A DNA stretch of 64,000 nucleotides from Deroplatys truncata (taxonomy: Eukaryota > Arthropoda > Insecta > Mantodea > Mantidae). The stretch is taken from the NCBI GenBank assembly GCA_030765065.1, contig CM060977.1, positions 159,845,052 to 159,909,051 of the forward strand, in the 5' to 3' direction. Shown here in pieces: positions 21,293-61,183 of the stretch. Every line of letters begins with the position of its first letter. Position 1 is the stretch's first letter. A program made the position numbers and the translations under genes. Below the pieces are notes generated by a model. The model was given only the letters and a program-made list of their open reading frames with translations. It was not told the origin of the DNA and searched no databases.

Positions 21293-21434
21293 CTATGTGC
21301 ACACTGCTGATGCTACACATCTGTGCTAGCTGAAATGTTGCCTCCATCTGGTGAAACTTTCTTGGTTTCTCAATAAGCCACTTTCCAGAGAGCTTGTTAC
21401 TTGTGAGAAGATTCTCAGCCACATGCTTAGCATC
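21293..21434 (-). CDS. XRCC1: XRCC1-like exon 2 (N-terminal domain)
   Basis: XRCC1 is the nuclear scaffold of single-strand break and base-excision repair; its N-terminal domain binds DNA polymerase beta and nicked DNA. This 142-nt exon has an acceptor TTTGTTCTTAG and a donor beginning GTACAT. It encodes 47 residues with no stop: DAKHVAENLL, GKWLIEKPRK, QMEATFQLAQ, ISSVHIG. Human XRCC1 has DSTHCAENLL ... HSVDIG at the same place, and the paralogue XNDC1N aligns without gaps. The frame joins exon 1 exactly (TSQ + DAKH). The intron between them is 10,165 bp and full of transposons. The next exon (GN..SAFVEVLV-like) was not found. The ordinary coding character amid repeats supports a real exon; XNDC1N-like is the alternative name. 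Confidence 0.8.
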
Positions 21435-21615
21435 CTAAGAACAAATATAAGTACTAATAACTATAAACTGAAGCTAATATACAAGCATGTACTTATATTA
21501 ATGGCAAAGCTTCACTTATCTTTCTAATTAAAAGGAAAATTTGAAGTGATACATTCACATGACTTTCTCTACCTCCATAATTTATTAGTGGGTATACAAA
21601 CTAAATAAGCTTATT

Positions 21616-22454
21616 ACTTTCTCTACTACGTATTAGTAAGTAGGGGAAGTATTGTATTCCACCCAAAAATTCGATACCGAGATTTCACCGGAAATATATG
21701 TCTTGAGATCCCCTGAATCCAAAAAAAACTATTTTTGGAAACATGTGCATGCGTGTCTGTCTGTGAACAGCATAATTCAGAAACAAACAGTCGGATAAAC
21801 ACCAAACTTGATATTTAGGTTCAGTATCTTCCAGAGATGCGGCACGAAGGTTTTCAAGAAAATCCCCCCACCCCAGATTACCCTTTACATGAAACATTTT
21901 TCGAAAATTTTAATTTTCTCAAAAATAGCTCTAACAATTTTGATTAAAATATCATAAGTTTAAGATATTTTCATGACAAATGAAATATATATCTCGAATT
22001 TTCTGGGAATGTCTCCAAAAGTATTCTTCATTGTGAACGACTTTTGCATAACTGGTAAACCATAAGAGATAGACAAAATTTTACTGCACAAAAAATGTAC
22101 ACCGCGTTAAAATACACAATTTATGTCATATACATTTTTTTTGTTGAGTCAACCATTTTCAAGATATTCATTGTTATTCCCTTAGATTTTCCAATACTTA
22201 TACTTTTTCTCAAATGGAAATTCATTATTCACTTTTTTTTTGTCCTGGTAATGCAAAGAGAATGGAATACTCCACATAGCAATCAGCTCTTAAAATATTT
22301 GACTATAGGTTAAAGCCTACCAATTCCCCTTGCATCTACAAGAAAATTAGCAATAAGATTAACATCTCGATTGACATGAAGCATATGGAGAATAAGCGTT
22401 TGTAAAAATAGTTTGTACAAGTGTAGAGAAAGTCATGTGAGTGTAAACGTAAGA
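21616..22454 (+). mobile_element. Microsatellite MITE copy a
   Basis: ACTTTCTCTACTACGTAT start, central GTGCATGCGTGTCTGTCTG tract, and AGAGAAAGTCATGTGAGTG near the end. A somewhat diverged member of the family detailed at 33474. Confidence 0.8.
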
Positions 22455-22639
22455 TTTTTTTCTATCTACTAGTTTTAGTCCAAATAAACCTTTGCGAAAT
22501 AGCTGCATTATACAATTCATTATAGATACAAAGAGAACAACAATAGTCAAATGTTTTAGAACTGGACACTATATGCTGTCCTTAAAATTCCATGCTGTTT
22601 TCATGCAATTGTGAGAATCAGCTGAATGTTGATAGAACT

Positions 22640-23245
22640 TTAAGAGAATGACCAAAAACGAACAATTTGAACTATTAATTATGGATATCTCAGAAATGGC
22701 TTATGCCACAAAAAAAAAAAAACTTATTTGAAATAAATTGTGTGTTTTAAAGAGATCTGCATTTTTTGTATAGTACGTTTTCATCTATCCTTTAACGTTT
22801 ACCAGTTGTACAAGATTATACAAAATTCCTTCCGAATGAAGAGAACTTTACAGGCCATTCCCAGAAAATTCAAGATATACATTTTATTTATCATGTAAAT
22901 ATCTTTAGTAAATGATATTTTAATCAAAACCATTAGTGAGATTTTTTAGAAAATCACAATGTTGGAAAAATGCTTATATAAAGAGTAGTTTGGGGTAGGG
23001 GGATTTTTTGAAGATCTTCATGTCACATCTTTGGAAAACGCTGAACTTAAACACCAAGTTTGATATTGATCCGACTTTGTTTTTGAGTTATGCTGTTTGC
23101 ATTCACGCGTGTGCATACCCACTCACACAGACTTTTTTTTTATTTAAGGGGCCTCAAAACATGCATTTCCGGTGAAATCTCTGTATCAAATTTTTGGATG
23201 GAATGCAATACCTTCTCTACCTATTATGTACATGGTAGATAAAGT
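22640..23245 (-). mobile_element. Microsatellite MITE copy b, diverged
   Basis: Minus orientation. It keeps GGGATTTTTTGAAGATCTTC, CACCAAGTTTGATAT and GCATTTCCGGTGAAATCTC but has many substitutions; its 3' part is shortened or unalignable by eye. Confidence 0.65.
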
Positions 23246-23329
23246 AATATGTGTAGCTTTGTCATTAATACATTTATATATACCTATACATATAATTTAT
23301 ACACAGACGTATTTAATATAGGTTGCGCA

Positions 23330-24140
23330 GTGGGATATCATGGTTTTTACAGACTTGTTGGGGGACATTTAGAATGTGAAAAGATGGTTTGTTACGTTAT
23401 TGTTTTACCACGCTTTGGGCGTCAATTTGAAGTAGTTTGTATTGAAGGAGTTGTATCGTATTTCGATGGTTGGGGAGCCGAACTTGTAGTAGTTGCAACC
23501 GCACATATAGTAAACAGTTTCCGGTAGCCTTCGCCCCAAGTGTACTTTCAGGTGGCCTTCGTCCCAAATGTACTTTCAGATGGCCTTTGCCCCAAGTTTA
23601 AAAAAATATTATCTTTGTAATTTAACTGTTTCTTTAAATATTGTATATTTATGTTTGCCTCGGCTGTGTCAGTATTATTGTTAGAGACACGTTTCTCTTA
23701 GCAGGGTTGTGATGCGACAAGAATGTAGGCTTACACAGATTATAATTTTACTTCACTCCTTTATTAATACTTGATACAATTTAAATAACACTTCACTGAT
23801 ATAGAGAGCTGTGAGATTCTTTTCACTAATTACTTGCGCTTTTTAACACGTAAACTATTTTTCGTCCCACATGAATACATATTATATTTCTTGACACTTT
23901 TTACGTTGGTTAGTAACGCTGTTTGCAGGCATCATGTCCAGTTATGAGCGCTGTCTAGAAGCAACTGAACTCTGTATTTGAAAATTTTGCTATATTTCAG
24001 TTTCTGATGGGCTAAATCTAGTCCAATAGAATACCTTCATTTAACTAAAGCTTTTTCTGGTTGTTGATTGGCTATTTTATAAACTGTCAAAAAAAATTAC
24101 ATTATTGTTGCTCCAATAATGACTAGTAGCATTATTAAAC
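23330..24140 (-). mobile_element. Family-A LTR copy A5, part 1
   Basis: Minus-orientation LTR with the PBS-like unit CACGCTTTGGGCGTCAATTT (23409-23428) and three units of the 28-29-bp GCCTTCGCCCCAA repeat. It is interrupted at 24152 by a Penelope fragment. Confidence 0.75.
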
Positions 24141-24152
24141 ATTCTTATTCAT

Positions 24153-24861
24153 ATATATATTGTAATGAAAAGAAGCTAGAAACAGTGATGTGTATTGAAT
24201 TTATTTAAAGGTGAGTCGGAATTGTTACACTAACATCACTTAAGTTTACTCACTTAACATGTTTCGGGAAACAGTTGTTCCCATCCTCAGAAGGTTAATT
24301 CGACTGGCCTGTGTTGTTGGTGTTTCCGTTTTTTGGACTGGATCCTGTGGTGGCATCTTGTGGTGGAGAAATGTACTTCCAGAGAGGATTTGGTGGCGGC
24401 AAATCAAAATTCATTAGATTTGTGTTGTGTTTTAGAATGGTGATCTTCTCCCATGCATCTAATTCGGCTGCAAATTTGGCTGGTTTGACTAATGTAATAT
24501 TGGGTTTGATGTTGTGATTAGTGATCCAAAAATGGTGTGAAACTGCAGATTTGTCCATTTGTTTGTATTTAATACATCTCATGTGCTCCTTTAGCCTAGT
24601 TTCTAAGTTTCTTTTTGTCTTACCTATGTATACTTTATTGCAATCTGAACAATTGATTTTATAGATTCCAGCTTTTTTGTCTTGTGGAATGGGGTCTTTT
24701 AACTTGTTACAAAGTAATTTCCAGTCCAAAAAACGGAAACACCAACAACACAGGCCAGTCGAATTAACCTTCTGAGGATGGGAACAACTGTTTCCCGAAA
24801 CATGTTAAGTGAGTAAACTTAAGTGATGTTAGTGTAACAATTCCGACTCACCTTTAAATAA
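24153..24861 (-). mobile_element. Penelope fragment with inverted ends and 12-bp TSD
   Basis: Flanked by ATTCTTATTCAT (24141-24152 and 24862-24873). Ends of about 150 bp are inverted copies (TTTCCGTTTTTTGGACTGG and its complement at 24716-24734), each with a hammerhead-like core (24261-24290 minus, 24772-24801 plus). Between them is the endonuclease frame. Confidence 0.85.
24295..24729 (-). CDS. Penelope GIY-YIG endonuclease domain
   Basis: The open frame of 144 codons has AGIYKINCSDCNKVYIGKT (residues ~20-38), LETRLKEHMRCIKYKQ, SHHFWITNHN and LDAWEKITILKHN, the complete order of a Penelope GIY-YIG nuclease. The CSDC pair is the zinc-linker cysteines. There is no RT, so it is an isolated domain inside an inverted-terminal fragment. 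The frame is intact, which suggests recent insertion, but the copy cannot retrotranspose by itself. Confidence 0.8.
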   Translation of the reverse strand: MDWKLLCNKLKDPIPQDKKAGIYKINCSDCNKVYIGKTKRNLETRLKEHMRCIKYKQMDKSAVSHHFWITNHNIKPNITLVKPAKFAAELDAWEKITILKHNTNLMNFDLPPPNPLWKYISPPQDATTGSSPKNGNTNNTGQSN

Positions 24862-24873
24862 ATTCTTATTCAT

Positions 24874-25124
24874 TATTGCCTGAAGGTTACCTCATTGTTA
24901 GCAACTTTTAACTTATTATTCTCACAGCTCCTACATAATTAAATTATATAATATATTCACATAACATTATTGAACATGCTTACAATAATATAAGTATATG
25001 CAATGACTGTTACATACATTTTATAAATTATTACATACACATATTGCTTCAAGGCGGGCTGTTATTGAATTTACATATTATATAATTACACTGAAATTAA
25101 TTAAGTGTTAAAAATACTGCCTCA
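24874..25124 (-). mobile_element. Family-A LTR copy A5, part 2
   Basis: It resumes TATTGCCTGAAGGTTACC after the Penelope fragment and ends AATACTGCCTCA. Confidence 0.8.
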
Positions 25125-25149
25125 AATGAATTAAAATAAACACACATAC

Positions 25150-25490
25150 TGGAAGTAAGCTAGTGTAATACATTTTAATTATTAATCTCTCATTACTTTT
25201 TCATAACTATATTTTGTAAATAGCCTCCCTGCAACAAATGCATTCCTGCAATCTGTTGTTGAAGTTCTGTATGACTCACTCCAACAAAATAGGATCAATG
25301 GCACTGATTTTGTTCCCTATGTGTTCTTTTAGCTGGATGATCATGTGATGCTTTTTGCAATACACCCTACTTTTCAAATAGCCACATAAGAAGTAATCAG
25401 CTGTAGTCAGATCAGGAGATCTAGGTGGCCAGGCTGTGTGTCCTAATTTGTTGAAACCATAATAACACTAGTGTGCATGATATCGGATGA
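25150..25490 (-). pseudogene. Tc1/mariner-superfamily transposase C-terminus
   Basis: Minus frame reads WPPRSPDLTTADYFLCGYLKS (shown here as WPPRSPDLTTAD + YFLCGYLKS), then VIQNFNNRLQECI. It is the third catalytic region and C-terminus of an insect mariner-superfamily transposase. The N-terminal half of the same type lies at 27400-27905. Confidence 0.7.
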
Positions 25491-25522
25491 CTGAAAACTA
25501 ATGTGATTCTGACTCACTTTTT

Positions 25523-25657
25523 ACTTTCTCTACTACGTATAGTAAGTAGGGGAAGTATTGCATTCCACCCAAAAATTCGATAGCGAGATTTCACCGGAAA
25601 TACATGTTTTGAGACCTCCTGAATCCAAAAAAAGCATTTTTGGAAACATGTCCGCGC

Positions 25658-25728
<71 letters not shown>

Positions 25729-26423
25729 TGTGAACAGCATAACTCAAAAACGAACAGTCGGATAAACACCAAACTTGGTATTTAGGTTCAGTATCTTCCA
25801 GAGATGCGACACGAAGGTTTTCAAGAAAATCCCCCCACCCCAGACTACCCTTTACATGGAACATTTTTCGAAAATTTTAATTTTCTCAAAAATGGCTATA
25901 ACGATTTTGATTAAAATATCATATGTTTAAGATAATGTCATGAGAAATGAAATGTATATCTCGAATTTTCTGGGAATGTCTCCAAAAGTATTCTTCATTG
26001 TGAACGACTTTTGCATAACTGGTAAACCATAAGAGATAGACAAAATTTTACTACACAAAAAATGTAGATCTCGTTAAAATACACAACTTATGTCATATAC
26101 ATTTCTTTTGTTGAGTGAACCGTTTTCGAGATATTGCTTGTTATTCCCTTAAATTTTCCAATACTTATACTTTTTCTCAAATTCATTATTCATTTTTTTA
26201 TGTCCTGGACTTGCAAAGAGAATGGAATGCGCCGCATAGCAACCAGCGTTAAAATATTTGACCATCGCTTAAAAGCTACCATATTCCCCTTGCATCTACA
26301 AGAAAATTACCAATAAGATTGACATCTCGATATCTCGATTAACATAAAGCATATGGAGAATAGGCGTTTGTAAAAATAGATTGTACAAGAGTAGAGAAAG
26401 TCATGTGAGTGTAACACATCAGA
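25523..26423 (+). mobile_element. Microsatellite MITE copy c
   Basis: Full-length, with a long (GT)n tract at about 25660-25726. Ends ACTTTCTCTACTACGTATAG and CACATCAGA. Confidence 0.85.
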
Positions 26424-26499
26424 TTTTTTATGCTGATTTCAGAACTGGTTTTAGTTTTTTCTATCACGTACAGTTTTTTCACAATTTCACTTCAAAAAT

Positions 26500-27045
26500 A
26501 TAGAGATATAAGGATATTGCTTCCGTCACTACACATAAAATTGGGCTTGATGAAGTAATTTGTAAGGGCTCTACCACAGGATGGACTCTGCTTCAAGTAC
26601 CTTTCCAAGAAATTTTTGTTGGTCCTCAAATGAAGAAATTGATGAAGGATGAAGACTTTGAGAAGACAATGAATGAGAGAGAAATAGAAGCATGGACCGC
26701 CTTCCAATCAGTTACTGAAAACTTCTTAGGTAATAACAAAGATCCTAATTACAAGTCCATTGTCGAAACAATATTGGAAAATTTCAAGAAGATGGGCTGT
26801 AACATGAGTGTAAAGGTGCATTTTCTGCATTCACGTATCGACTACTTTCCAGAAAATCTGGGACATTATAGTGAAGAGCAGGGTGAACGTTTTCACCAAG
26901 ATATTAAGGAAATGGAGAGAAGGTACCAGGGGGGATGAAATGAAACTATGATGGCCGACTACTGTTGGATGTTGAGGAGGGACAGTCATCTTCAAGGATC
27001 TGCAAGAAAGTCAAATAAGAGAAAGTTTGAAAAAAATTAAATGAA
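26500..27045 (+). pseudogene. Pseudogene of a repeated arthropod protein family of unknown function
   Basis: Frames read LLPSLHIKLGLMK, FVGPQMKKLMKD, NFLGNNKDPNYKSIVE, GCNMSVKVHFLHSRIDYFP, EEQGERFHQDIKEMERRYQG, DYCWMLRRD. This order is familiar from a multi-copy 'uncharacterised protein' family scattered through arthropod genomes, probably transposon-derived. The longest open part is 26630-26938 (102 codons); stops break both sides. No catalytic role is known to me. Confidence 0.65.
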
Positions 27046-27099
27046 ACACTTTGGCTTCTTGTTTTATTAAAATGTAGTCATGAAATAAATTAGGGGAGT

Positions 27100-27905
27100 T
27101 CTTGAGAGCATTCTTAAAATGTTCCTTGAATAAAAACTTACCTTGTGTGAAATGGTATTTGAATACTTTTCTATGCTCATTAGTATATTTTGTGTAACAA
27201 CCTGACGTGACAGAAAAAAACAGAAGTTATTTCTGGAATCACCATAAAAACTTGATTCAAGAACACCTACTTTTAAGAAATCATCTGACAAAAAGTTTGA
27301 AAATGCAGACTAGTGTTACTCATCATCAAAATTAATGTTGCCATGAGTTTCTAACACTGAGCATTTGTTGGTAGCATTCTGAGTTGATTCCAAAGGCAGA
27401 AACACCACACGAGATCGTTACTTTTGGACTGTGTAATGGTTTTTAGTGAAAATTCAGTTTATATACACAACCAAAAAGTGGAAATGTGCCTCATCCGACA
27501 TAATCAGTATGTTCAGAATATCTGGATTAGTATTCAACATGTCAGTAAACTGTCTACAAAACTGCATTACAGGAAGTTTATCAATTGGTTTAACTCGATG
27601 CACAAACTGAAATTTGTACAAATGAAATTAGAGGTCAGAGGGTAGGATGCAGGAAAACTTCTGTCCGATGCATTTAAAGCCATTGACTGACACCTTGCAG
27701 AAAGAGTTGGACTTTGCTGCAAAGCTTCTCTAACTCTCACAATGTTCTCAGGCATAAGGACTGTTTTTGGACTGCCAACAAACTCATCACAAATATTGCC
27801 AGAATTGGTAAATTTACTCACCCACTTTAAGATAGGTTTCGGGACAGAATTCTTTCATGCCGTGCAATTTTAAATTCATTTCTAAATCTTCTCTGAGCAT
27901 GAGTG
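27100..27905 (-). pseudogene. Tc1/mariner-superfamily transposase N-terminal half
   Basis: Minus frames read KFTNSGNICDEFVGSP, PENIVRVREALQQSP (helix-turn-helix region, 27567-27821), then ILNILIMSDEAHFHFL near 27500, carrying the first catalytic aspartate. It is the typical 'DEAHFHL' insect transposase. The C-terminal half at 25150-25490 is probably from the same copy, split by insertions. Confidence 0.65.
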
Positions 27906-27929
27906 ATCGATTTCAACTTAAAAAATTTT

Positions 27930-28576
27930 GATGTGTTACGCTCACATGACTTTCTCTACTCTTGTACAAACTATTTTTACAAACGCTTATTCTCCATATG
28001 CTTCATGTTAATCAAGATATCGAGATGTTTATCTTATTTATCTTATTGCTAATTTTCTTGTAGATGCAAGGGGAATTGGTAGGCTTTAAGTGATAGTCAA
28101 ACATTTTAAGAGCTGATTGCTATGTGGAGTATTCTATTCTCTTTGCATTACCAGGACAAACAAAACAAAAAAAAAAAAAAAGAATAACGAATTCCCATTT
28201 GAGAAAAGGTAATAAGTATTGGAAAATTTAAGGGAATAACAAGCAATATCTTGAAAATGGATCACTCAACAAAAAAAAATGTATATGACATAAATTGTGT
28301 ATTTTAACGCGATCTACATTTTTTGAGTAGTAAAATTTTGTCTATCCCTTATGGTTTACCAGTTATGCAAAAGTCGTTCACAATGAAGAATACTTTTGGA
28401 GACATTTCCAGAAAATTCAAGATATACATTTTATTTGTCATGAAAGTATCTTAAATATATGATATTTTAATCAAAATCGTTAGACCCTTTTATGAGAAAA
28501 TTAAAATTTTCGAAAAATGTTCCATGTAAAGGGTAATCTGTGGTGGGGGGATTTTCTTGAAAACCTTCGTGTCGCA
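27930..28576 (-). mobile_element. Microsatellite MITE copy d, truncated
   Basis: Minus orientation from the GATGTGTTACGCTCACATGA end to GAAAACCTTCGTGTCGCA; the microsatellite and left terminus are missing. Confidence 0.85.
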
Positions 28577-28698
28577 ATTACATTTGATGCCTGCTCTAGA
28601 ATTAATGAAGCTATTTAAATATTTATATATATATATTAAGAACTGACAGTAAATGGTATGCATTACAAACGAAATAGAAGGTAAACATAGGTAAAAAA

Positions 28699-29399
28699 TC
28701 TGATGTGTTACACTCACATGACTTTCTCTACTCTTGTACAATCTATTTTTACAAACGCCTATTCTCCATATGCTTTATGTTAATCGAGATATCGAGATGT
28801 CAATCTTATTGGTAATTTTCTTGTAGATGCAAGGGGAATATGGTAGCTTTTAAGCGATGGTCAAATATTTTAACGCTGGTTGCTATGCGGCGCATTCCAT
28901 TCTCTTTGCAAGTCCAGGACATAAAAAAATGAATAACGAATTTGAGAAAAAGTATAAGTATTGGAAAATTTAAGGGAATAACAAGCAATATCTCGAAAAC
29001 GGTTCACTCAACAAAAGAAATGTATATGACATAAGTTGTGTATTTTAACGAGATTTACATTTTTTGTGTAGTAAAATTTTGTCTATCTCTTATGGTTTAC
29101 CAGTTATGCAAAAGTCGTTCACAATGAAGAATACTTTTGGAGACATTCCCAGAAAATTAGAGATATGCATTTCATTTCTTATGACATTATCTTAAACATA
29201 TGATATTTTAATCAAAATCGTTATAGCCATTTTTGAGAAAATTAAAATTTTCGAAAAATGTTCCATGTTAAGGGTAGTCTGGGGTGGGGGGATTTTCTTG
29301 AAAACCTTCGTGTCGCATCTCTGGAAGATACTGAACCTAAATACCAAGTTTGGTGTTTATCCGACTGTTCGTTTTTGAGTTATGCTGTTCACAGACACA

Positions 29400-29465
<66 letters not shown>

Positions 29466-29593
29466 CATGTTTTCAAAAATGCTTTTTTTGGATTCAGGAG
29501 GTCTCAAAACATGTATTTCCGGTGAAATCTCGGTATCGAATTTTTGGGTGGAATGCAATACTTCTCCTACTTGCTATACGTAGTAGAGAAAGT
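28699..29593 (-). mobile_element. Microsatellite MITE copy e
   Basis: Full-length minus copy with an (AC)n tract at about 29395-29461. Ends TCTGATGTGTTACACTCAC and TACGTAGTAGAGAAAGT. Confidence 0.88.
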
Positions 29594-31599
29594 AAAAAGG
29601 AAAATAAACAAAAGAAAAAAATAAACACAAACAATAACAAAACAAAAAATATAGTGTGGGTCTACTAGGCCCCGCGCGACCAACGGTGTCCTACCAAAGC
29701 ACACACCTGACAGAGGGTTAAGGACTTACCAGAAAGAAAACAAAAAGGGTGGTGGAAACAAAAACACACTACGTTAAGGCAATATGGTGGAATAGTGCAA
29801 ACCAGAGTATGGCACATTGTTCATTCTTTGCTGTTTGAATACATTCCACCCACAATTATGGTGATTTTCTCAAGGGCAACAGTGATGATACCCTACCAAA
29901 TTATAGCTTTTATCATTTTATGTCACATCTCCATATTTCTTTGATTATGTATATTTTTATACCTGCAAAATTTTATTTTGAAGTAATAAAAATACAAAGA
30001 GAGGCCAAATTCAGGTGGAAATTAAATGTCTTACAATAGTCTTAAACAGGAGTACAGATATTTCACTGTTTGGTGATGTATCATTCACAAGACGACATTA
30101 AATTGGTAAGTCGATGGCAGCTGGGCGCCAAAATTGCAAGCGTACATATAGTACATGGGGCAACAGTGCACCTCGTTTAACCTGTACTGTCTTTTAAGCC
30201 TTAGATGCACTATATGTAAATCATTCTGTGTCTAGAGGTGATAAAACAGATTATTTATTTTAGACTGTATTTTGTATTAGATTGTACACAGTATCAAATT
30301 ATGTATTTAATATTCTAATCTAATAATTTCCAAATTTAAATATTTGCAAGAAGTAAAAAGGCAAATGGAAGGAAAAAAGGTATAAATATATTTATGCCCA
30401 CAAGATTATGCTTGTATATATTAGTGCAGGTTAATCCATAAGTTTTGAACTACTACTGTACATATTCAAATATTCAATTTTGCTTTCATAAGACCATTTT
30501 TACTCATAAAATATATTCTCTACAGTTGTAAAACACCTAACTGGAAAAACTGTGCCTACATGGTCTGGTCAACGCCATTTAATGTTTTATTATTCCCATT
30601 TCACAACCCTTTATAGTATTTGAAATGCATTTTCCCACTTAACACAACTGAAACTTTGCATGCAATCAGCTGTGGTAAAAGTCACTCGATCTGTATTGTG
30701 GCCTGATACTATATTACGATTATGAAGATGGTAATCAGGTGCAATAATCTGATTTCAGTAGCTCGTCACGCAGATATTTTACCCTGTGCGCATGCGCCAG
30801 GACTTAGAATAACAGCTTGACCCAATAGACCAACCCCTACCCTGAACCCAGTAACTTACTTCTGTGATTAGCTGAAAGAGAAGCCACTGTTAAAATTGTG
30901 GCTAGACTACCGTATCCAGCTGCCCCTCCTCCCAAATTGTAACAAATGAAGACGAATGCAATGAAAATACCTAAATTAGAGGTTTAGGAGATGTAAACAC
31001 TTGGAAAGCCTGGAGCCCATTAACCCGACCTTTTTTTAGACACTTTGTTTTATAGCAAAATCATTGTGTAATGTCAACAAAGGTCTCCAACTTGTTACTG
31101 CATGGAAGTGCAAACTGACCAAGAGGGTCTGGATAAGGAAGTTTGTTGGAAATTTCTTATAAGAACCCTTCATGACTTAGATTTAGTAACTAACAAAACA
31201 TTTATGGAGCTTAAATAGGGTATAATTAACTGTATAATTGACAAGTTCAAAAAATTTAAACACTAGACTACCACAAGAAATTTCAGCAATGTATACTGTC
31301 TGTATGTCACGTCCATATGGCCTTAGAATTTTAATTTATTGACACATCCAAGTACAATAAACCTCGGCAACGCATATTATCTGAATTGTAACTGGACACC
31401 AAAGGTAGAGAGTTATAAATTACGGTAATGGAATACAAACTATAAACAACGAGGTGGGAATCTTTAGCTTCAAACTAAAACTAGATGAAACATTCTCGTA
31501 ACTTTGGCAGCCAGTAACAAATAAATTTCAATGTATTAGTATTGGATTCTAAAGAGCGCTTCGGTAATTAGCTTAAAATAAATAGAAGGCCTGTCTTAC
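29594..31599. other. Mostly unique XRCC1 intron 1 sequence
   Basis: No transposon or ORF is recognised. An NRF-1-type palindrome lies at 30788-30797. Confidence 0.4.
30788..30797. promoter_or_regulatory. NRF-1-like palindrome
   Basis: GCGCATGCGC, with flanks close to the YGCGCAYGCGCR consensus, in otherwise CpG-poor DNA 0.8 kb inside XRCC1 intron 1. Confidence 0.3.
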
Positions 31600-31644
31600 C
31601 TGGGAAGTAAAGCTTTTAACCTCAACTAAGCGAATTTCAGGCAT
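31600..31644 (-). CDS. XRCC1: XRCC1-like exon 1 (start of protein)
   Basis: The 45-nt coding part of exon 1 reads MPEIRLVEVKSFTSQ, ending CAG at a GTAAGA donor. Human XRCC1 begins MPEIRLRHVVSCSSQ and its next residues are DSTHCAENLL, matching exon 2 here (DAKHVAENLL) in frame. XRCC1 is a nuclear scaffold for single-strand-break repair; this is the first beta strand of the N-terminal domain. The start is the only ATG in frame before the splice site. A 10-codon upstream ORF (31709 down to 31677) would precede it if the transcript starts far enough upstream. The gene faces CARHSP1, whose ATG is 649 bp away. Confidence 0.82.
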
Positions 31645-32292
31645 GTAGAATACACATGCGGTACAATAAATTTGCACTACAAATCTTTCCTATTCCCAAT
31701 TCCCGCCATCCTAAACAGAGTACCAACAGCCGAAAGCAAATAATGATAAATCTATTTGTTTATGGACCTATAATGTAATGTTAAACTTATTTTTGTTCAA
31801 TAAGGTTCTTAAAAGTACATATTTATTTGTTTATATGGTTCATTTTTTATAAATGAGATGTATTTACTTGCTTACAGGTAAAGAAACAAAATGAAGATGT
31901 TGGTAACATATGTAGTAACTTCGATTAAAAAGGCAGGTAGAGAAAAACAAGTGCATGTAACTCGAATATAGTTGTAACTTGTAATGTAAACAAGCAAATT
32001 AGCAGACTAACTCAGCGAAACATAGTGTTCTTTCTGTTTTCCTGCTAGAAAGCAAAGGAACTGCAGTAGTTGTAAGTGTTCATATAAAGTTAGGATAGTA
32101 TAGTCTACTCTCATTGTTACATTTAATACAACAAATAATTTAATAAATGAGAATGAATCCTAAAATTGCTTAAGAGTTGCTAATCTGACCTTACAAGGAC
32201 AAACGAAACGTGCATGTATCATTCTAAACTTAATTCTAATTGTTTGTGCAATCGCATTCATTACAGAGAACCGAGAGTGAAAGGTTTACAGA
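31645..32292. promoter_or_regulatory. Shared divergent promoter region of XRCC1 and CARHSP1
   Basis: The region separates the two start codons. It has an E2F-like TTCCCGCC at 31700-31707, overlapping a YY1-like GCCATC. On the CARHSP1 side a donor GTAAGT at 32072 and an acceptor CATTCATTACAG ending 32266 could frame a 195-bp 5'UTR intron. No TATA box is obvious and no transposon is recognised in it, unlike both flanking introns. The start sites are unknown. Confidence 0.5.
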
Positions 32293-32420
32293 ATGTCTCA
32301 ACATTCCAAACCAAGTAACCCAACTGCAGCATCGCTCTTATCACCAGAGTCTCCCGGAGGCAGTCCCAAGTTACAGGTTCCAAGCCCTTTAATTACAAGA
32401 CGTACTCGGACAGATTCAAC
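32293..32420 (+). CDS. CARHSP1: CARHSP1-like first coding exon
   Basis: CARHSP1 (Drosophila CG9705) is a small cytoplasmic cold-shock-domain protein that binds single-stranded nucleic acid and stabilises certain mRNAs. The exon starts ATG with A at -3 and encodes 42 residues plus two bases: MSQHSKPSNP, SLLSPESPGGSP, then QVPSPLITRRTRTDST. Human CARHSP1 has VPSPLPTRRTRTFSA here, a proline-directed phosphorylation region. A consensus GTAAGT donor follows at 32421. The phase (two bases, AC) fits the acceptor at 57312. The 24,891-bp intron between holds most of the window's MITEs. Confidence 0.85.
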
Positions 32421-33470
32421 GTAAGTCTGATAATTGAAGTATTAGAGAAGCTTCCGAAAACAATTATATTGATTATAGTATATTGTATAATTATCTTTGC
32501 ATGTGAATGTTAATTGACAGCGCCCCGCCCCCTTTTCGGTGAAGCAAGCCCAAATAATGGTGTCGCTGTTATCTTAATTTTAGTTCATGCCGGCTGTATT
32601 CTCATCAGTGTTCTTAATGTAAAAAAATTCGAATTCCTACAATAAAATTGTCATGGAGAGTTGCAACTGTTGTAATCCTTTGAGGACACTTGTGTTCGTC
32701 TTTCACAATAGCTGATGCTCGCATTCAAGTTGTTTATTGTAACTCAAAAAGTCATTTAAATAAAATAAAAAATAAAAATCTATTTATTGACAATGTGCTT
32801 CAGTGGTAGAAAACAGAGACTTGAGTCTAAAATTTTTCCTTTTTATGTCAAAGTGTGTAGCACCTGTAAATACTGAGCACTATTGCCAAATACATGTGTC
32901 ACTTTCTATAACGTTACATTGTTATGAGTTGTCATATAAAATAACAATAAAAGAAATTTACACAATATGGAGGAATAGTTATATGCTAAATTTTAACAAA
33001 GATCAGTTAACATGGACTTTCATACCACTGTTGATACATCCTCTGGATTATGCAAGCTCTTCATTGTGCAATATTTGTAGTGGAAGCTATGCACTGTGAA
33101 GCAAATCATTATATCATAAAAAGGATTTTTGTCCTGTCCCTGGGAGTGATGGCATCTGTGCAGTAAAAGTACTCTCAAATTTCCTCCTTCCCAAGTTCCT
33201 GGAGCAGCTGCTGGGGAAATTGCCTTTCTTGGGCCCGCATTAGCGACTGAAGTGATGTCATAGATATCCAACAGATGTCACTGTGTGTCCTACAGATGTC
33301 AACACATGGCACTGTACGTCATTCTTTGGCTTTAATGCAATGCTGGCAACATATGAATAAGTAATGCCAGCAAAGGCAGAGATATATCCCCAAATTTCTC
33401 GGTTTGGTTTTTTTTTTTATACAAGCTTACATTTATGAATTCACGCAACGTTAGCCTTGGGTTAGGTTTT
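32421..33470. other. CARHSP1 intron 1, first kilobase
   Basis: Mostly unassigned. Part of 33120-33330 is more GC-rich, with an 83-codon minus frame that I cannot identify. Confidence 0.35.
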
Positions 33471-33473
33471 TTT

Positions 33474-34317
33474 ACTTTCTCTACTACGTATAGTAAGTAG
33501 GGGAAGTATTGCATTCCACCCAAAAATTCGATACCGAGATTTCGCCGGAAATACATGTTTTGAGACCTTCTGAATCCAAAAAAAGCACTTTTGGAAACAT
33601 GTCCGTGTGTGTGTCTGTGTGTCTGTGAACAGCATAACTCAAAAACGAACAGTCGGATAAACACCAAACTTGGTATTTAGGTTCAGTATCTTCCAGAGAT
33701 GCGACACGAAGGTTTTCAAAGAAATCCCCCCACCCCAGACTACCCTTTACATGGAAGATTTTTCGAAAATTTTAATTTTCTCAAAAATGGCTCTAACGAT
33801 TTTGATGAAAATATCATATGTTTAAGATAATGTCATGAGAAATGAAATGTATATCTCGAATTTTCTGGGAATGTCTCCAAAAGTATTCTTCATTGTGAAC
33901 GACTTTTGCATAACTGGTAAACCATAAGAGATAGACAAAATTTTACTACACAAAAAATGTAGATCGCTTTAAAATACACAACTTATATCATATACATTTC
34001 TTTTGTTGAGTGAACCGTTTTCGAGATATTGCTTGTTATTTCCTTAAATATTCCAATACTTATACTTTTTCTTAAATTTGTTATTCATTTTTTTTGTCCT
34101 GGACATGCAAAGAGAATGGAATGCGCCACATAGCAACCAGCGTTAAAATATTTGACTATCGCTTAAAAGCTACCATATTCCCCTTGCATATACAAGAAAA
34201 TTACCAATAAGATTGACATCTCGATATCTCGATTAACATGAAGCATATGGAGAATAGGCGTTTGTAAAAATAGATTGTACAAGAGTAGAGAAAGTCATGT
34301 GAGTGTAACACATCAGA
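33474..34317 (+). mobile_element. Microsatellite MITE copy f (reference copy)
   Basis: Family layout: left end ACTTTCTCTACTACGTATAG, then AAGTATTGCATTCCACCC, a short GT/CT microsatellite (33603-33628), GAACAGCATAACTCAAAAAC, a body of ~600 bp, AGTAGAGAAAGT near the right, and a terminal CATGTGAGTGTAACACATCAGA-type end. ACTTTCTCTACT at the left is the complement of AGTAGAGAAAGT at the right, a 12-bp sub-terminal inverted repeat. Full copies are about 840-920 bp and lie in T-runs. No protein is encoded; the mobilising enzyme is unknown. Confidence 0.85.
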
Positions 34318-34356
34318 TTTTTTTTATATAAGCTTAGGTTTCTGAATTAATTTTTT

Positions 34357-34660
34357 ACTTTCTGTACTATGTATAGTAAGTAGGGGAAGTATTGCATTCC
34401 ACTCAAAAATTCGATACTGAGATTTCACTGGAAATACATGTTTTGAGGCCTCCTGAATCCAAAAAAAAGTATTTTTTGAAACATGTCCGTATGTGTGTCT
34501 GTGAACAGCATAACTCAGAAAGGAACAGTCGGATAAACACCAAACTTGGTATTTAGGTTCTGCATCTTCCAGAGATGCGACACGAAGGTTTTCAAGAAAA
34601 TCCTCCCACTCCAGATTACTCTTTACATGGAACATTTTTCGAAAATTTTAATTTTCTCAA
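34357..34660 (+). mobile_element. Microsatellite MITE copy g, truncated
   Basis: Only the left third (through TTTTAATTTTCTCAA) is present, 40 bp after copy f and in the same orientation. Confidence 0.85.
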
Positions 34661-43010: not shown

Positions 43011-43130
43011 AAATGTTGCCATGATAGCTTAGTTGGTTAGAGCAACGGCACGGAAAGCCTAAGATCCGTGGTTCAAATCCCGGCTATGGCATTGAATTTT
43101 TCAGTCTGATTATACCTTTCCAAATGACTA
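43010..43130 (+). repeat. SINE family 2 copy inside the transposase
   Basis: Box A TAGCTTAGTTGGTTAGAGC, box B GGTTCAAATCC, then TTTTTCAGTCTGATTATACC. Confidence 0.75.
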
Positions 43131-47821: not shown

Positions 47822-49064
47822 CACTACATGATCAAAAGTATCCGGACACCTGGCTGAAAATGACGTACAAGTTCGTAACGCCCTCCATCGGTAATGCTGG
47901 AAGTGAATATGGTGTTGGCCCACCCTTAGCCTTGATGACAGCGTTCACTTTCGCAGGCATACTTTCAATCAGGTGCTGGAAGGTTTCTTGGGGAATGGCA
48001 GCCCATTCTTCACGGAGTGCGGAACTGATGAGAGGTATCAATGTAGGTCGGTGAGACCTGGTGCTCCAAAACATCCCAAAGGTGTTCTATAGGAGTCAAG
48101 TCAGGACTTTGTGCAGGCCAGTCCATTACAGGGATGTTATTGTCGTGTAACCACAACTCTGCCACAACCCGTGCAGTATGAACAGGTGCTCGATCATGTT
48201 GAAAGATGCAATCGCCATCCCCGAATTGCTCTTCAACAGTAAGAAGCAAGAAGGTGCTTAAAATATCAATGTAGGTCTGCACTGTGATCGTGCCATGCAA
48301 AACAACAAGGGGTGCAAGCCCCCTCCAGGAAAAACACGACCACACCATAACACCACCACCTCCGAATTTCACTGTTGGCACTATACATGCTGGCAGATGA
48401 AGTTCACCGGGCATTCGCCATACCCACACCCTGCCATCGGATTGTCACATTGTGTATTGTGATTCGTCACTCCACACAACGTTTTGTCACTGTTCAATCA
48501 TGTAATGTTGACGGTCCTTACACCAAGCGAGGCGTCGTTTGGCATTTTCCTGCGTGATGTATGGCTTATGAGCAGCCGCTCAGCCATGGAATCCAAGGTT
48601 TCTCACTTCACGCCTAACTGTCATAGTACTTGGAGTGGATCCTGATGCAGTTTGGAGTTCCTGTGTGATGGTCTGAATAGATGTCTGCCTATTACTCTTT
48701 ATGACCCTCTTAAAATGTCGGTGGTCTTTGTCAGTCAACAGACGAGGTCGGCCTGTACGCTTTTGTGCTGTACATGTCCCTTCACGTTTCCACTTCGTTA
48801 TCACATCAGAAACAGTGGACCTAGGGATGTTTAGGAGTGTGGAAATCTCGTGTACAGACTTCTGACACAAGTGACACCCAATCACCTGACCACGTTCGAA
48901 GTCCGTGAGTTCCACAGAGCGTCCCATTCTGCTGTTTCATGATGTCTAATGACTACTGAAGTCATGAATAATCAGTATACCAGGCAGTAGGTGGCAGCAC
49001 AATGCACTTAAGATGAAAAAATGTATGTTTGTGGGGGTGCCCGGATACTTTTGATCACATAGTG
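47822..49064 (-). mobile_element. Tc1-like transposon, full length
   Basis: 1243 bp, with ends CACTACATGATCAAAAGTAT and ATACTTTTGATCACATAGTG flanked by TA (47820-47821, 49065-49066). It lies within the EN reading frame of the surrounding non-LTR element. The TIR is about 28 bp. Confidence 0.9.
47840..48927 (-). pseudogene. Tc1 transposase (DD34E), two stops and a frameshift
   Basis: It starts MGRSVELTDFERGQVIGC (48927) with paired helix-turn-helix domains (LNIPRSTVSDVITKW; then a GRPRLL hook). Catalytic residues are present: WSDES near 48475, [11 protein letters not shown] near 48185, and [12 protein letters not shown] near 48080. In-frame TGA codons occur after GFHG (near 48580) and in the MIEQ region (near 48490), and the frame shifts near 48030. 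Usual length is about 340 residues. The catalytic triad survives, so decay is recent. Confidence 0.85.
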
Positions 49065-50512: not shown

Positions 50513-51788
50513 CGAGGGTGCTCTGAAAAGTTTCTGACCTCAACATGAAGATGGCAGCACTCGTAAATAAAAGCTAGTCAATTTCGTTGTTCATCTGTTG
50601 ACAGTTACTCACCAAAGTTTCAGCCATTTTGGATGCTCAGTTGTTATGTAACAGTCGTTTGAGTTAGGTGATGTGAGTGTTTTTATGAAAATGGACAAAA
50701 TCGAGTATTGAGCTGTCATTAAATATTTGTTTTGGAAAGGCAATACGCCTACGCAAATCAAAGATGAGTTGGATTCTATGAATGGGGACTCTGCACCATC
50801 ATTTACCACAGTGAAATTTTGGGCAGCTGAATTTAAATGTTGCTGTAAGAGCTTGGGAGACGATGAACGTTCGGGACGTCCAAAAATTGCAACTACTGAC
50901 GAAAACATCGCCAAAGTTCACCAAATGGTGCTAGATGACCGCCGAATTAAAGTGAGAGAGATAGCAGAGGCTATGAACATGTCAAAAGAATGTGTTTGTC
51001 ACATATTAAATCAACATTTAGACATGAGTAAGCTGTCCGCGTGTTGGGTGTCGCGTTTGCTCACGTTTGACCAAAAACGTGTTCGAATGAACATGTTGGC
51101 GCAGTTTAGGTGCAATAAATCCGAGTTTTGGCGCCGATTAATTACTGTAGATGAAACTTGGATACACCATTATATGCCCGAAACAAAAATACAGTCCAAA
51201 CAGTGGACTGCAAGGGGGAACCGGCTCCAAAAGTAGCAAAAACTGTTTTTTCAGCTGGGAAAGTGATGGCGACAGTTTTTTGGGATACTCATGGAGTTAT
51301 TTTAATCGATTATCTTCAAAAAGGAAAAACCATTACAGGAACATACTACGCATCATTACTTGACAAGCTGAAGGCAGAACTTGTGGAAAAACGGCCACAT
51401 TTGCAGAAAAAGAAAATCCTGTTTAACCAAGACAACGCACCGTCTCACACCTCAGCGGTTGCAATGGCGAAAATCCACGAATTACGGTTTGAACTGCTTG
51501 ACCATCCGCCTTACTCACCAGATCTAGCCCCAAGCGACTTCTTTTTGTTCCCTCATCTGAAAATTGCACTCGGAGGACAGAGATTTTCGTCAAAGGAAGA
51601 GGCAATCACCTTCGTGAATAATTATTTTGCAGAGAAAAATGCCGAGTACTATTTGGATGGGTTACAGAGATGGGAGCATCGTTGGGAGAAGTGTGTAGAG
51701 TTACAAGGAGACTATGTTGAAAAATAAAAAGAAAAAAATTCTGAAAAAATGTCTTGTATCTTAATTAGGTCTTTTCAGACCACCCTTG
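50513..51788 (+). mobile_element. Mariner transposon, full length, in RT of the non-LTR element
   Basis: 1276 bp, ends CGAGGGTGCTCTGAAAAG and CTTTTCAGACCACCCTTG, flanked by TA (50511-50512, 51789-51790). Removing it and one TA restores the surrounding RT frame (IPTY-ITFIDYSK). Confidence 0.9.
50689..51727 (+). pseudogene. Mariner transposase (DD34D), nonsense and frameshift
   Basis: Start MKMDKIEY near 50689; a TGA at codon 9 replaces a probable CGA Arg. The frame then opens (50727-51236) through the HTH region (DDERSGRPK, VREIAEAMNMS) and VDETWIHHY (first Asp). A frameshift near 51215 moves it to 51158-51727, which has FNQDNAPSHTS (second Asp) and PYSPDLAPSDFFLF (third Asp). I count 34 residues between the second and third Asp. 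It ends GDYVEK. All three catalytic residues survive. Confidence 0.85.
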
Positions 51789-57311: not shown

Positions 57312-57434
57312 GTCAGCACGAGCTCATGAGAACCCAACTGAAACTGGAAGAGTCAAAACTTTCAGCCGTTCTAAAGGTCACGGATTCATTACCTCAGATG
57401 CAACAGGAGAAGATATATTTGTCCACATTTCTGA
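57312..57434 (+). CDS. CARHSP1: CARHSP1-like cold-shock domain exon
   Basis: 123-nt internal exon: acceptor AATCTGTTTAG, donor GTAAGT at 57435. It continues the first exon in frame (AC + G) and encodes SARAHENPTETGRVK, TFSRSKGHGFITSD, GEDIFVHIS, ending with two bases GA. The SKGHGFI segment is RNP1 of the cold-shock domain (Phe contact residue) and DIFVHIS is RNP2. In human CARHSP1 the same stretch is CRSKGHGFITP ... DIFLHISD. The remaining beta strands (GEYVP, GDEV) should be on a later exon that I do not see in the window. The protein binds single-stranded RNA or DNA in the cytoplasm. Confidence 0.9.
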
Positions 57435-58530: not shown

Positions 58531-59786
58531 CAAGGGCAGCCCCAGAAGTACCTGACCTGAAGTACATATAGTGGTTGTTGTTTCAAACAAATACCTGTGG
58601 TAGAAAGCACCACCCTTATAAAGCTTAAGTTTGAAGCTTGACGATGCTACGTTGTTTAGTAATTATTTGGCAGCCATTAATAGTGAACTCTCTCAGCAAA
58701 TTTGTAAACATGGATAAAACTGGCCATTGTTATGTGATACAATACTTTCGTTTGAAAGATCTTAGTCCAGCTAAAATTAAAGCTGAGTTAGATTACACTC
58801 TGGAGGAGTCTGCTCCTTCATTTACAACAGTAAAATATTAGGTGGCAGAGCTTAAGTGAGGCCGTACGAACTGCCAAGACTAACATTACAGTGATGACCA
58901 AATGAGGTGAGCACGCCCGAAATTGTGATGAAAATCCACAAAATGGTATTGGATGACTGTCGGCTGAAAGTGAGCGAGCTAGCAGACATCGTAGGTATTT
59001 CAAAAAGTGCTGTACGTCGCACACTAACTGACAATTTACACATGAGAAAGCTGTGCACAATATGGGTGCCGCAGTTACAATGGAACAAAAGCAGCATCGT
59101 GAGGATGTTTCAATCAAGTGTTTGGCGATGTTTCGCTGCAATAAAGCGTGTTTTTATGTCGATTCATAACCATGGATGAAACATGGGTTCATCACTTCAC
59201 ACTTGAGACAAAGGAACAGTCCAAAGAAGGTGAAGGCAGTTCCGTCTGCAGGCAAGGTCATGGCGTCAGTTTTTTGGGATGCGCGTGGAATAATTTTCAT
59301 TGATTATCCTCAAAAAGGAAAAGCAATCAATGGTGAGTGTTACGCAAACTTATTGCAACAGTTGAATGATGAAATCAAGCAAAAACAACCGCATTTAGCG
59401 AAAAAGAAAGTTCTGTTTTGTCATGGCAATGCACCAGTTCACACATCCATTATTGCCATGGAGAAAATCAATGAGTTAAAGTTCGAATTGCTTCCTCATG
59501 CACCCTATTTGCCAGACTTAGCCCCCTCTGATTATTTTCTGTTTCCAAAGTTGAAGAAATGGCTTGGTGATAAAAGATTTGCCAACAATGAAGAGGAGGA
59601 GTTTGCAGTTGGTGGCTATTTTGTGGAACTCGACGGTTCTCACTATAAACAGGGTATTGAAGCTATTGAACATCACTGGGAAAAGTGTATCAAGCTGAAA
59701 GGAGACTAGGTAGAGAAATAAAGATGTTTTTTCTCAAAATTTTTGTCTTTTCTTTGTTAGATCGGGTACTTCTGGGACAGCCCTCG
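58531..59786 (+). mobile_element. Second mariner transposon, full length
   Basis: 1256 bp, ends CAAGGGCAGCCCCAGAAGTA and TACTTCTGGGACAGCCCTCG, flanked by TA (58529-58530, 59787-59788). Confidence 0.9.
58710..59709 (+). pseudogene. Mariner transposase lacking a catalytic Asp
   Basis: It starts MDKTGHCYVIQYF (58710). Stops appear from about 58840 (KY then TAG), and the frame recovers at 58907-59179 (HKMVLDDCRLKVSELADIVGI). MDETWVHHF (first Asp) is near 59174. At the second catalytic site the sequence is FCHGNAPVHTS instead of a QDNAP-type motif: Asp is Gly. PYLPDLAPSDYFLF keeps the third Asp. The end is GD then TAG. It cannot catalyse strand transfer even if the frame were restored. Confidence 0.85.
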
Positions 59787-59788
59787 TA

Positions 59789-60320
59789 ATTTGCTGCCTC
59801 TACTACTGCACCTACCATAGGTAAACTACAAAGAAACTGAAATGTAATAGAGTATTCTCATTTTTACCCAATGATTTATTTACTCTTATGTTATCAGGTA
59901 TCACATGAAATGGACCTATATACAGAGTGTATCGTAATTGATATTACAAATACAAACTAACAGGGGTGACAGCACACACAAATAAGAGCAAAAAAAGTCC
60001 CAACAAACATGGGTTTGCAAACAAGCCACTTGTTAGACAATTGCAAGTCTGTAGCTAAGAGCCACAATGACTTCATTGTATGTTTTACTTCTTCTATGAC
60101 TTGTCCAAGTTGTACCCTTTGTTTTCAAAACTGGACATTGCCAAGAAATGTCGCTTTATTTAAACCACAGGATAGATATGAGTACACATTCTCAAATGGT
60201 AGGAATCATGTTGCCTTTCTGAGGAGTGAGTTGTGCTATATTGTAGTTAAGATGGAGTCTTACTTCAACAAAGAGTATCAGACAAGTATTTCATATATTG
60301 TAGGGCAGTATCTTTTTATT
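59789..60320. other. Unassigned intron sequence
   Basis: A 112-codon frame (60009-60347) has no recognisable domain. Confidence 0.35.
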
Positions 60321-61183
60321 ACTTTCTCTACTATGTATAGTAAGTAGGGGAAGTATTGCATTCCACCCAAAAATTCGATACCGAGATTTCACCGGAAATA
60401 CATGTTTTGAGACTCCCTGAATCCAAAAAAAGCATTTTTGGAAACATGTCCGTGTGTGTGTCTGTGTGTGTGTGTGTGTGTCTGTGTGTCTGTGAACAGC
60501 ATAACTCAGAAACGAACAGTCGGATAAACACAAAACTTGGTATTTAGGTTCAGTATCTTTCAGAGATGCGACACGAAGGTTTTCAAGAAAATCCCCCCAC
60601 CCCAGACTACCCTTTACATGGAACATTTTTCGAAAATTTTAATTTTCTCAAAAATGGCTCTAACGATTTTGATTAAAATATCATATGTTTAAGGTATTTT
60701 CATGACAAATGAAATTTATATCTCGAATTTTCTGGGAATGTCCCTAAAAGTGTTCTTCATTCTGAACGACTTTTGCATAACTGGTAAACCATAAGAGATA
60801 GACAAAATTTTACTACACAAAAAATGTAGAACGCGTTACAATACACAATTTATATCATATACATTTTTTTTGTTGAGTGAACCGTTTTCGAGATATTGCT
60901 TGTTATTCCCTTAAATTTTCCAATACTTATACTTTTTCTCAAATTCGTTACTCATTTTTTTATGTCCTGGACTTGCAAAGAGAATGGAATGCGCCACATA
61001 GCAACCAGCGCTTAAATATTTGACTATCGCTTAAAACCTACCATATTCCCTTGCATCTACATGAATATTACCAATAAGATTGACATCTCGATATCTCGAT
61101 TAACATGAAGCATATGGAGAATAAGCGTTTGTAATAATAGTTTGTACAAGAGTAGAGAAAGTCATGTGAGTGTAACACATCAG
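60321..61183 (+). mobile_element. Microsatellite MITE copy o
   Basis: Full-length plus copy; GT tract at about 60450-60495; ends ACACATCAGA. Confidence 0.88.

Follow-up and report, generated by a model that had tools for sequence, protein, structure and literature searches.

Vertebrate XNDC1 (or XNDC1N) is a protein with the N-terminal domain of XRCC1 that is not known to carry BRCT. The XRCC1 N domain itself binds Pol beta, with an affinity that is raised by oxidation of Cys12 and Cys20 (PMC11885647). Human XNDC1N is referred to as a ‘missing protein’ whose RNA and antibody data are discordant in ovary (PMC10775140), and a mouse Xndc1 knock-out is listed with fusion of vertebral processes, together with zero PubMed results for Xndc1 (PMC12876460). 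For insects, a survey of repair genes gives an XRCC1 orthologue in Aedes, with no paralogue mentioned in the passages concerned (PMC6849265). Here we describe a minus-strand gene with an XRCC1-type N domain in a 64,000-nucleotide stretch of the mantis Deroplatys truncata, hereafter ‘the window’ (C3:159845052-159909051, in a 4.29-Gb assembly of 818 contigs), where it lies head to head with a CARHSP1 homologue. Sequence comparison identifies this gene as a divergent paralogue carrying the XRCC1_N domain, not as XRCC1. We consider it probable that its product is a 491-residue XRCC1 paralogue in which a long polar linker connects an XRCC1-type N domain to two tandem zinc fingers of the UBZ4/Rad18 type, and that it is most likely the counterpart of XNDC1. 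Our literature searches returned no paper uniting XRCC1, UBZ4 and paralog, none with the phrase ‘XRCC1 N-terminal domain containing’, and none uniting UBZ4, RAD18, WRNIP1, SPRTN and FAN1.

Two XRCC1_N loci in the mantis genome

A preliminary description of the window had called the minus-strand gene XRCC1 on the strength of two exons joined at 31600/21434. This join holds: both exons are present (31600-31644 and 21293-21434, minus strand), with a GT donor and an AG acceptor, and they join in phase 0 and in frame. The coding part of exon 1 encodes MPEIRLVEVKSFTSQ and ends in the donor CAG/GTAAGA, placed by an approximate position weight matrix within the best 0.07% of GT sites. Exon 2, entered in phase 0 and left in phase 1, lies directly behind TTCTTAG; it codes for DAKHVAENLL...SSVHI and contributes the opening base of a G codon. 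The 63-residue peptide made by joining the two matched Pfam XRCC1_N over residues 1-63 with 40.9 bits (cut-off 21) and the N domain of human XRCC1 with an E-value of 5e-4.

The XRCC1_N profile exceeded its cut-off in four stretches of the genome, which fall into two loci, the window gene on contig C3 and a second one on contig C13. The latter (C13:211670164 onward) combines an XRCC1_N domain with exon pieces of BRCT1 and BRCT2, and its sequence identifies it as the canonical XRCC1. Its N domain scored 206.9 bits to Pfam and 171.6 bits to human XRCC1, and the downstream pieces matched BRCT1 (E 4e-15 and 2e-13) and BRCT2 (E 5e-5 and 0.002). The BRCT queries were human sequences, and the same queries were applied to both contigs; in the 164 kb around the window gene they found no BRCT at E<=1, and none is among the seven families that Pfam reported for the 491-residue model. 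The N domain of the window gene is complete, covering profile positions 1-147 of 148, and scored 130.8 bits to XRCC1_N (128.5 bits within the full 491-residue model; cut-off 21) and 92.8 bits to human XRCC1 (E 1.7e-25). The best XRCC1 match in the genome is therefore the C13 locus and not the window gene, and because that locus both scores higher and has BRCT pieces we rejected XRCC1 orthology for the window gene. Of the earlier assignment the N-terminal match to XRCC1 stands and the identity does not.

Within the domain, 84/150 positions are identical between the C13 and human sequences (56%), 59/148 between window and human, and 56/145 between window and C13 (39%). The window gene has three introns within the domain, and their positions all differ from those of the two introns found in C13. 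Old paralogy or fast divergence would each fit this relation, and three sequences cannot choose between them. The window gene has F, V, S, T and K at the positions of human Cys12, Cys20, Glu69, Val86 and Arg109, the last three of which we take to be contacts. C13 XRCC1 keeps Cys12, has Pro for Cys20, and has E, V and R at 69, 86 and 109; F67 is kept in both genes.

The seven-exon model and its UBZ-like fingers

We continued the minus-strand exons to the left of the window and obtained a model of seven exons spanning 82 kb, with consistent phases and a single, terminal stop; we infer that exons 1-7 are spliced as modelled. Exons 3 (C3:159842310-159842456) and 4 (C3:159837631-159837826) complete the XRCC1_N domain, and they are followed by exon 5 (C3:159829258-159830033, 776 bp), exon 6 (C3:159817197-159817279, 83 bp) and the last exon, exon 7 (C3:159795086-159795172, 87 bp), with an AATAAA 50 nt past its stop codon. 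Exon 6 was sought because a direct join of exons 5 and 7 is ruled out by their phases, 1 and 0, which do not fit. Pfam gave no family for exon 5 alone, and NCBIfam had none for XRCC1_N or the cold-shock domain. A 259-residue stretch of the exon 5 peptide matched only itself in the genome, so exon 5 is not a repeat.

The C terminus of the model reads CPICNVLFEESLIEAHSAKC ... CPLCKKMVSAVVLDAHADRC, that is, two fingers with identical C-x2-C-x11-H-x3-C spacing, which we take to be the rule for UBZ4/Rad18 fingers. Finger 1 depends for this spacing on the exon 5-6 join. Because exon 6 had come from a search for an exon able to complete a finger, we compared acceptor-donor pairs that passed the same filter (entry in phase 1, exit in phase 0, a pyrimidine tract and a donor score of at least 7 of 9): the exact finger-1 spacing arose from 1/25 pairs in the searched interval and, among pairs from control stretches, from 0/199. 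All six frames of 244 kb held no contiguous C-x2-C-x11-H-x3-C apart from finger 2. The best matches of the fingers among solved structures were the WRNIP1 UBZ (E 0.007), a WRNIP1 fusion (0.036), RAP80 (0.069) and RAD18 (0.073).

We take the motifs SF.SQD, GNCG.AF, TLLP and DSK.GKN of the window gene to be those of vertebrate XNDC1, and an XRCC1_N domain with no BRCT, which is what the 164 kb and the families of the model revealed, would mark that protein too. As a lead from these motifs, we suggest that the window gene is most likely the XNDC1 counterpart. Viral contigs and prokaryote genome contigs contained 68 and 34 pattern stretches, respectively, and no confirmed relatives.

CARHSP1, the intervening gap and the surrounding repeats

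The plus-strand gene had been described as CARHSP1 from exons joined at 32420/57312, and both the join and the name were borne out. The coding part of exon 1 (32293-32420, plus) encodes MSQHSKPSNP...PSPLITRRTRTDST and ends in the donor AAC/GTAAGT; exon 2 (57312-57434, plus) encodes the first half of the cold-shock domain, and the two, with a GT donor and an AG acceptor, join in phase 2 and in frame. Their 84-residue joined peptide matched the Pfam cold-shock domain (CSD) with 38.7 bits (cut-off 27) and human CARHSP1 (3aqq) with an E-value of 9.7e-15, in an alignment that starts at query residue 18 and takes in the exon-1 peptide VPSPLITRRTRT. The joined peptides of both genes thus exceed Pfam cut-offs, which confirms at the level of sequence that the paired exons are more than a chance observation. 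Exon 3 (window coordinates 72830-73019, plus) lies 8.8 kb to the right of the window and completes a homologue of 146 residues, with an N-terminal PSPLPTRRTRT-type motif and one cold-shock domain; about 147 residues are expected of CARHSP1. Seven CSD stretches were found in the genome: this one, two that are Lin28-like on contig C5 and four that are Unr-like within 46 kb on contig C7, the Lin28-like and Unr-like labels being given by eye. A second CARHSP1 on C5 was ruled out, the frame there being Lin28-like. By its sequence the plus-strand gene is an ordinary CARHSP1, of which one copy was found in the genome.

The two genes lie on opposite strands, and the gap between their start codons (31645-32292, no strand) measures 648 bp, a distance between start codons and not between transcription starts. 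The head-to-head order across a short gap is as first described, and so, as far as tested, is the lack of a transposon in it: the gap is single-copy, its one match in the 4.29-Gb assembly being itself in a search that passes over very common words. The same search with a 648-bp piece of the neighbouring intron (33400-34047), picked for its repeated reading frame, gave at least 48 matches, among them at least 39 further long copies with identities of 92-97%; first-look candidates for it numbered 3399 genome-wide, of which 40 were scored. The gap has a GC content of 0.312 and a CpG observed/expected ratio of 0.64, which is the 68th percentile of 648-bp tiles of the window, so that no CpG enrichment was seen. 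Both strands carry raw occurrences of TATA-like and initiator-like words. Altogether, CpG ratio, promoter-like words and splice sites gave no distinctive promoter signal in the gap. There is room for an intron in the 5’ untranslated region, with a donor at 32072 and, ahead of the CARHSP1 ATG, a possible acceptor, both noted by eye.

The gap is a candidate shared promoter, and from the arrangement of the sequence a bidirectional promoter serving both genes is plausible. The head-to-head arrangement alone is ordinary. We give even weight to the possibility that the order is incidental, with separate promoters in the gap and no co-regulation. Divergent pairs less than 1 kb apart are given as 31.6% of Drosophila genes (PMC2670823) and divergent pairs as more than 10% of human genes (PMC12672016), and the lack of a distinctive promoter signal points the same way. 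Against an incidental order, random closeness should be rare in a 4.29-Gb genome (by our estimate about 0.15% per gene, assuming 20,000 genes), so some force may keep the two starts close. A literature search on XRCC1, CARHSP1 and bidirectional promoters gave no title on an XRCC1-CARHSP1 pair among those listed.

Repeats fill the introns on either side. Intron 1 of the paralogue (21435-31599, minus, 10.2 kb) contains repeat and transposon-like frames, among them, by eye, a Penelope-like GIY-YIG frame at 24295-24804. Intron 1 of CARHSP1 (32421-57311, plus, 24.9 kb) contains a high-copy repeat as well as frames that by eye resemble mariner/Tc1 elements and reverse transcriptases; in the CARHSP1 introns, frames judged by eye to be mariner-like and Tc1-like transposases lie at 50712-51727 (+), 58898-59709 (+) and 48010-48936 (-). 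A dispersed repeat with a frame like NFRKMFHVKGSLGWGDFLENLRVASLEDTEPKYQVW occurs at window positions 25514-25876, 29246-29668, 33484-33771, 34324-34647 and 60291-60638, in many cases close to CA/GT dinucleotide runs. Also in CARHSP1 intron 1, positions 43018-43091 (+) matched the Rfam tRNA family with 43.5 bits and were unreported by ARAGORN; this is perhaps a tRNA-derived short interspersed element or a pseudogene.

Elsewhere in the assembly, a scan for COX1-like sequence (991 first-look candidates, 96 scored) gave at least 99 matches, mainly on contig C16 near 193-195, 611.2-611.4, 638.0-638.3 and 672.5-673.0 Mb. Many have stops and they cluster at repeated spacing; they probably represent mitochondrial DNA copied into the nucleus, with some of the copies apparently in amplified groups. 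On contig C638, a tRNA-like stretch between cox1 and cox2 scored 27.3 bits in Rfam (gathering score 29) and was unreported by ARAGORN; its anticodon reads as TAA, that is, tRNA-Leu(UUR). A tRNA-Leu(UUR) between cox1 and cox2 is the insect-crustacean order.

Competing readings, possible function and known relatives

Several points weigh against the 491-residue, XNDC1-like protein. Its exon joins are predicted from sequence. The exon 4 donor, AAG/GTTTGC, is weak, in the top 10.5% of GT sites by the approximate matrix; six phase-2 GT sites are listed for the exon, and scores above 2.5 were reached only by this donor (4.0) and by GAA/GTGGGA (5.2), which lies 33 bp upstream and leaves the frame unchanged. 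The intron between exons 4 and 5 is 7.6 kb long, the search that yielded exon 6 gave preference to H...C, and exon 7 had been spotted by eye. The E-values of the fingers in the PDB are weak, and the 30 matches listed also take in RING proteins and nuclear receptors (E 0.19-5.6). An 80-residue piece carrying the fingers stayed under the Pfam cut-offs for zf-C2HC_2 (20.0/27), Zn-C2H2_12 (20.1/23.2), zf_UBZ (16.0/25.6) and zf-WRNIP1_ubi (13.5/26.4), and zf-C2HC_2 drops to 13.5 in the whole 491-residue protein; since these scores are below cut-off, ‘UBZ-like’ is the fair term. A strongly diverged BRCT could have escaped detection, and the link to XNDC1 is a tentative one of motifs. Finally, an incomplete redox pair does not set the window gene apart, as Cys20 is lost from C13 XRCC1 too.

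Because the exon 4 donor is weak and the following intron long, the exons could instead divide between two genes on the same strand, one for a short XRCC1_N-only protein (exons 1-4) and one, 7.6 kb downstream, for a distinct protein carrying the two UBZ-like fingers (exons 5-7). Exon 4 does meet an in-frame stop (...VLRFANLGFKL-stop) shortly past the weak donor, and there is an ATG near the start of exon 5. However, there is no AATAAA or ATTAAA within 1.5 kb downstream of that stop, which disfavours exon 4 as a last exon, and the pyrimidine-rich, phase-2 acceptor of exon 5 suits both of the top-scoring phase-2 donors of exon 4; we regard two genes as unlikely. Still less probable, and in our view by a good deal, is a decaying pseudogene of the paralogue: weak donors in exons 2, 3 and 4 (top 9.3%, 6.2% and 10.5% of GT sites) would suit decay, as would introns that are long and full of repeats, but 491 codons are open over seven exons, the whole domain is matched and an AATAAA follows the final stop. 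That the window gene is XRCC1 itself and the C13 copy its duplicate we find barely credible, for although it matches human XRCC1 across the whole domain and its protein likewise starts MPEIRL, C13 has the higher score and pieces of both BRCT domains, which were not found in the 164 kb around the window gene or among the families reported for its model.

We thus favour a single gene encoding an XRCC1 paralogue with UBZ-like fingers, for which the following roles can be proposed. C13 XRCC1 would keep the classical Pol beta role; a Pol beta-like exon is present on contig C1, scoring 86.6 bits against Pol beta and 45 against Pol lambda. The N domain of the window protein would dock on a repair protein or a DNA end, and through the same fold it may bind a partner other than that of XRCC1. 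The fingers probably bind ubiquitin, and the window protein would then be a ubiquitin-directed adaptor at DNA damage. The gene and CARHSP1 would be transcribed divergently across the 648-bp gap, with both promoters, separate or shared, probably inside it. We put forward only tentatively, and think it rather doubtful, that all this describes an unstudied animal family in which an XRCC1-fold domain lacking the BRCT scaffold is steered in break repair by tandem ubiquitin-reading fingers, under a promoter shared with an RNA-binding stress protein. If the model holds, fingers of a ubiquitin-binding type on an XRCC1-type domain would give a first mechanistic hint for the little-studied XNDC1-like family, and one that becomes directly testable, vertebrates included. 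An N-terminal match to XRCC1 is insufficient for calling a gene XRCC1; the pairing of XRCC1_N with tandem UBZ-like fingers is the part worth following.

Among known systems, XRCC1 has XRCC1_N, BRCT1 and BRCT2, and the window gene shares the complete XRCC1_N domain; it differs in that no BRCT was found, in its introns and in the replacement of Cys12, Cys20, Glu69, Val86 and Arg109. Vertebrate XNDC1 would be alike in its N domain without BRCT and in its motifs, and UBZ-like fingers are described here for the window model. The UBZ4/Rad18-type proteins WRNIP1, RAD18 and RAP80 share the finger spacing and supply the best structure matches; in the window model the fingers are paired and stand behind an XRCC1_N domain, with weak scores and putative binding. 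CARHSP1 is matched by the plus-strand homologue in its PSPL-TRRTRT motif, cold-shock domain and length of 146 residues, and this homologue is ordinary except for its head-to-head pairing with an XRCC1_N paralogue. Like divergently paired genes with bidirectional promoters, which are defined by transcription starts less than 1 kb apart, the window pair lies on opposite strands around a single-copy gap, its 648 bp being measured between start codons.

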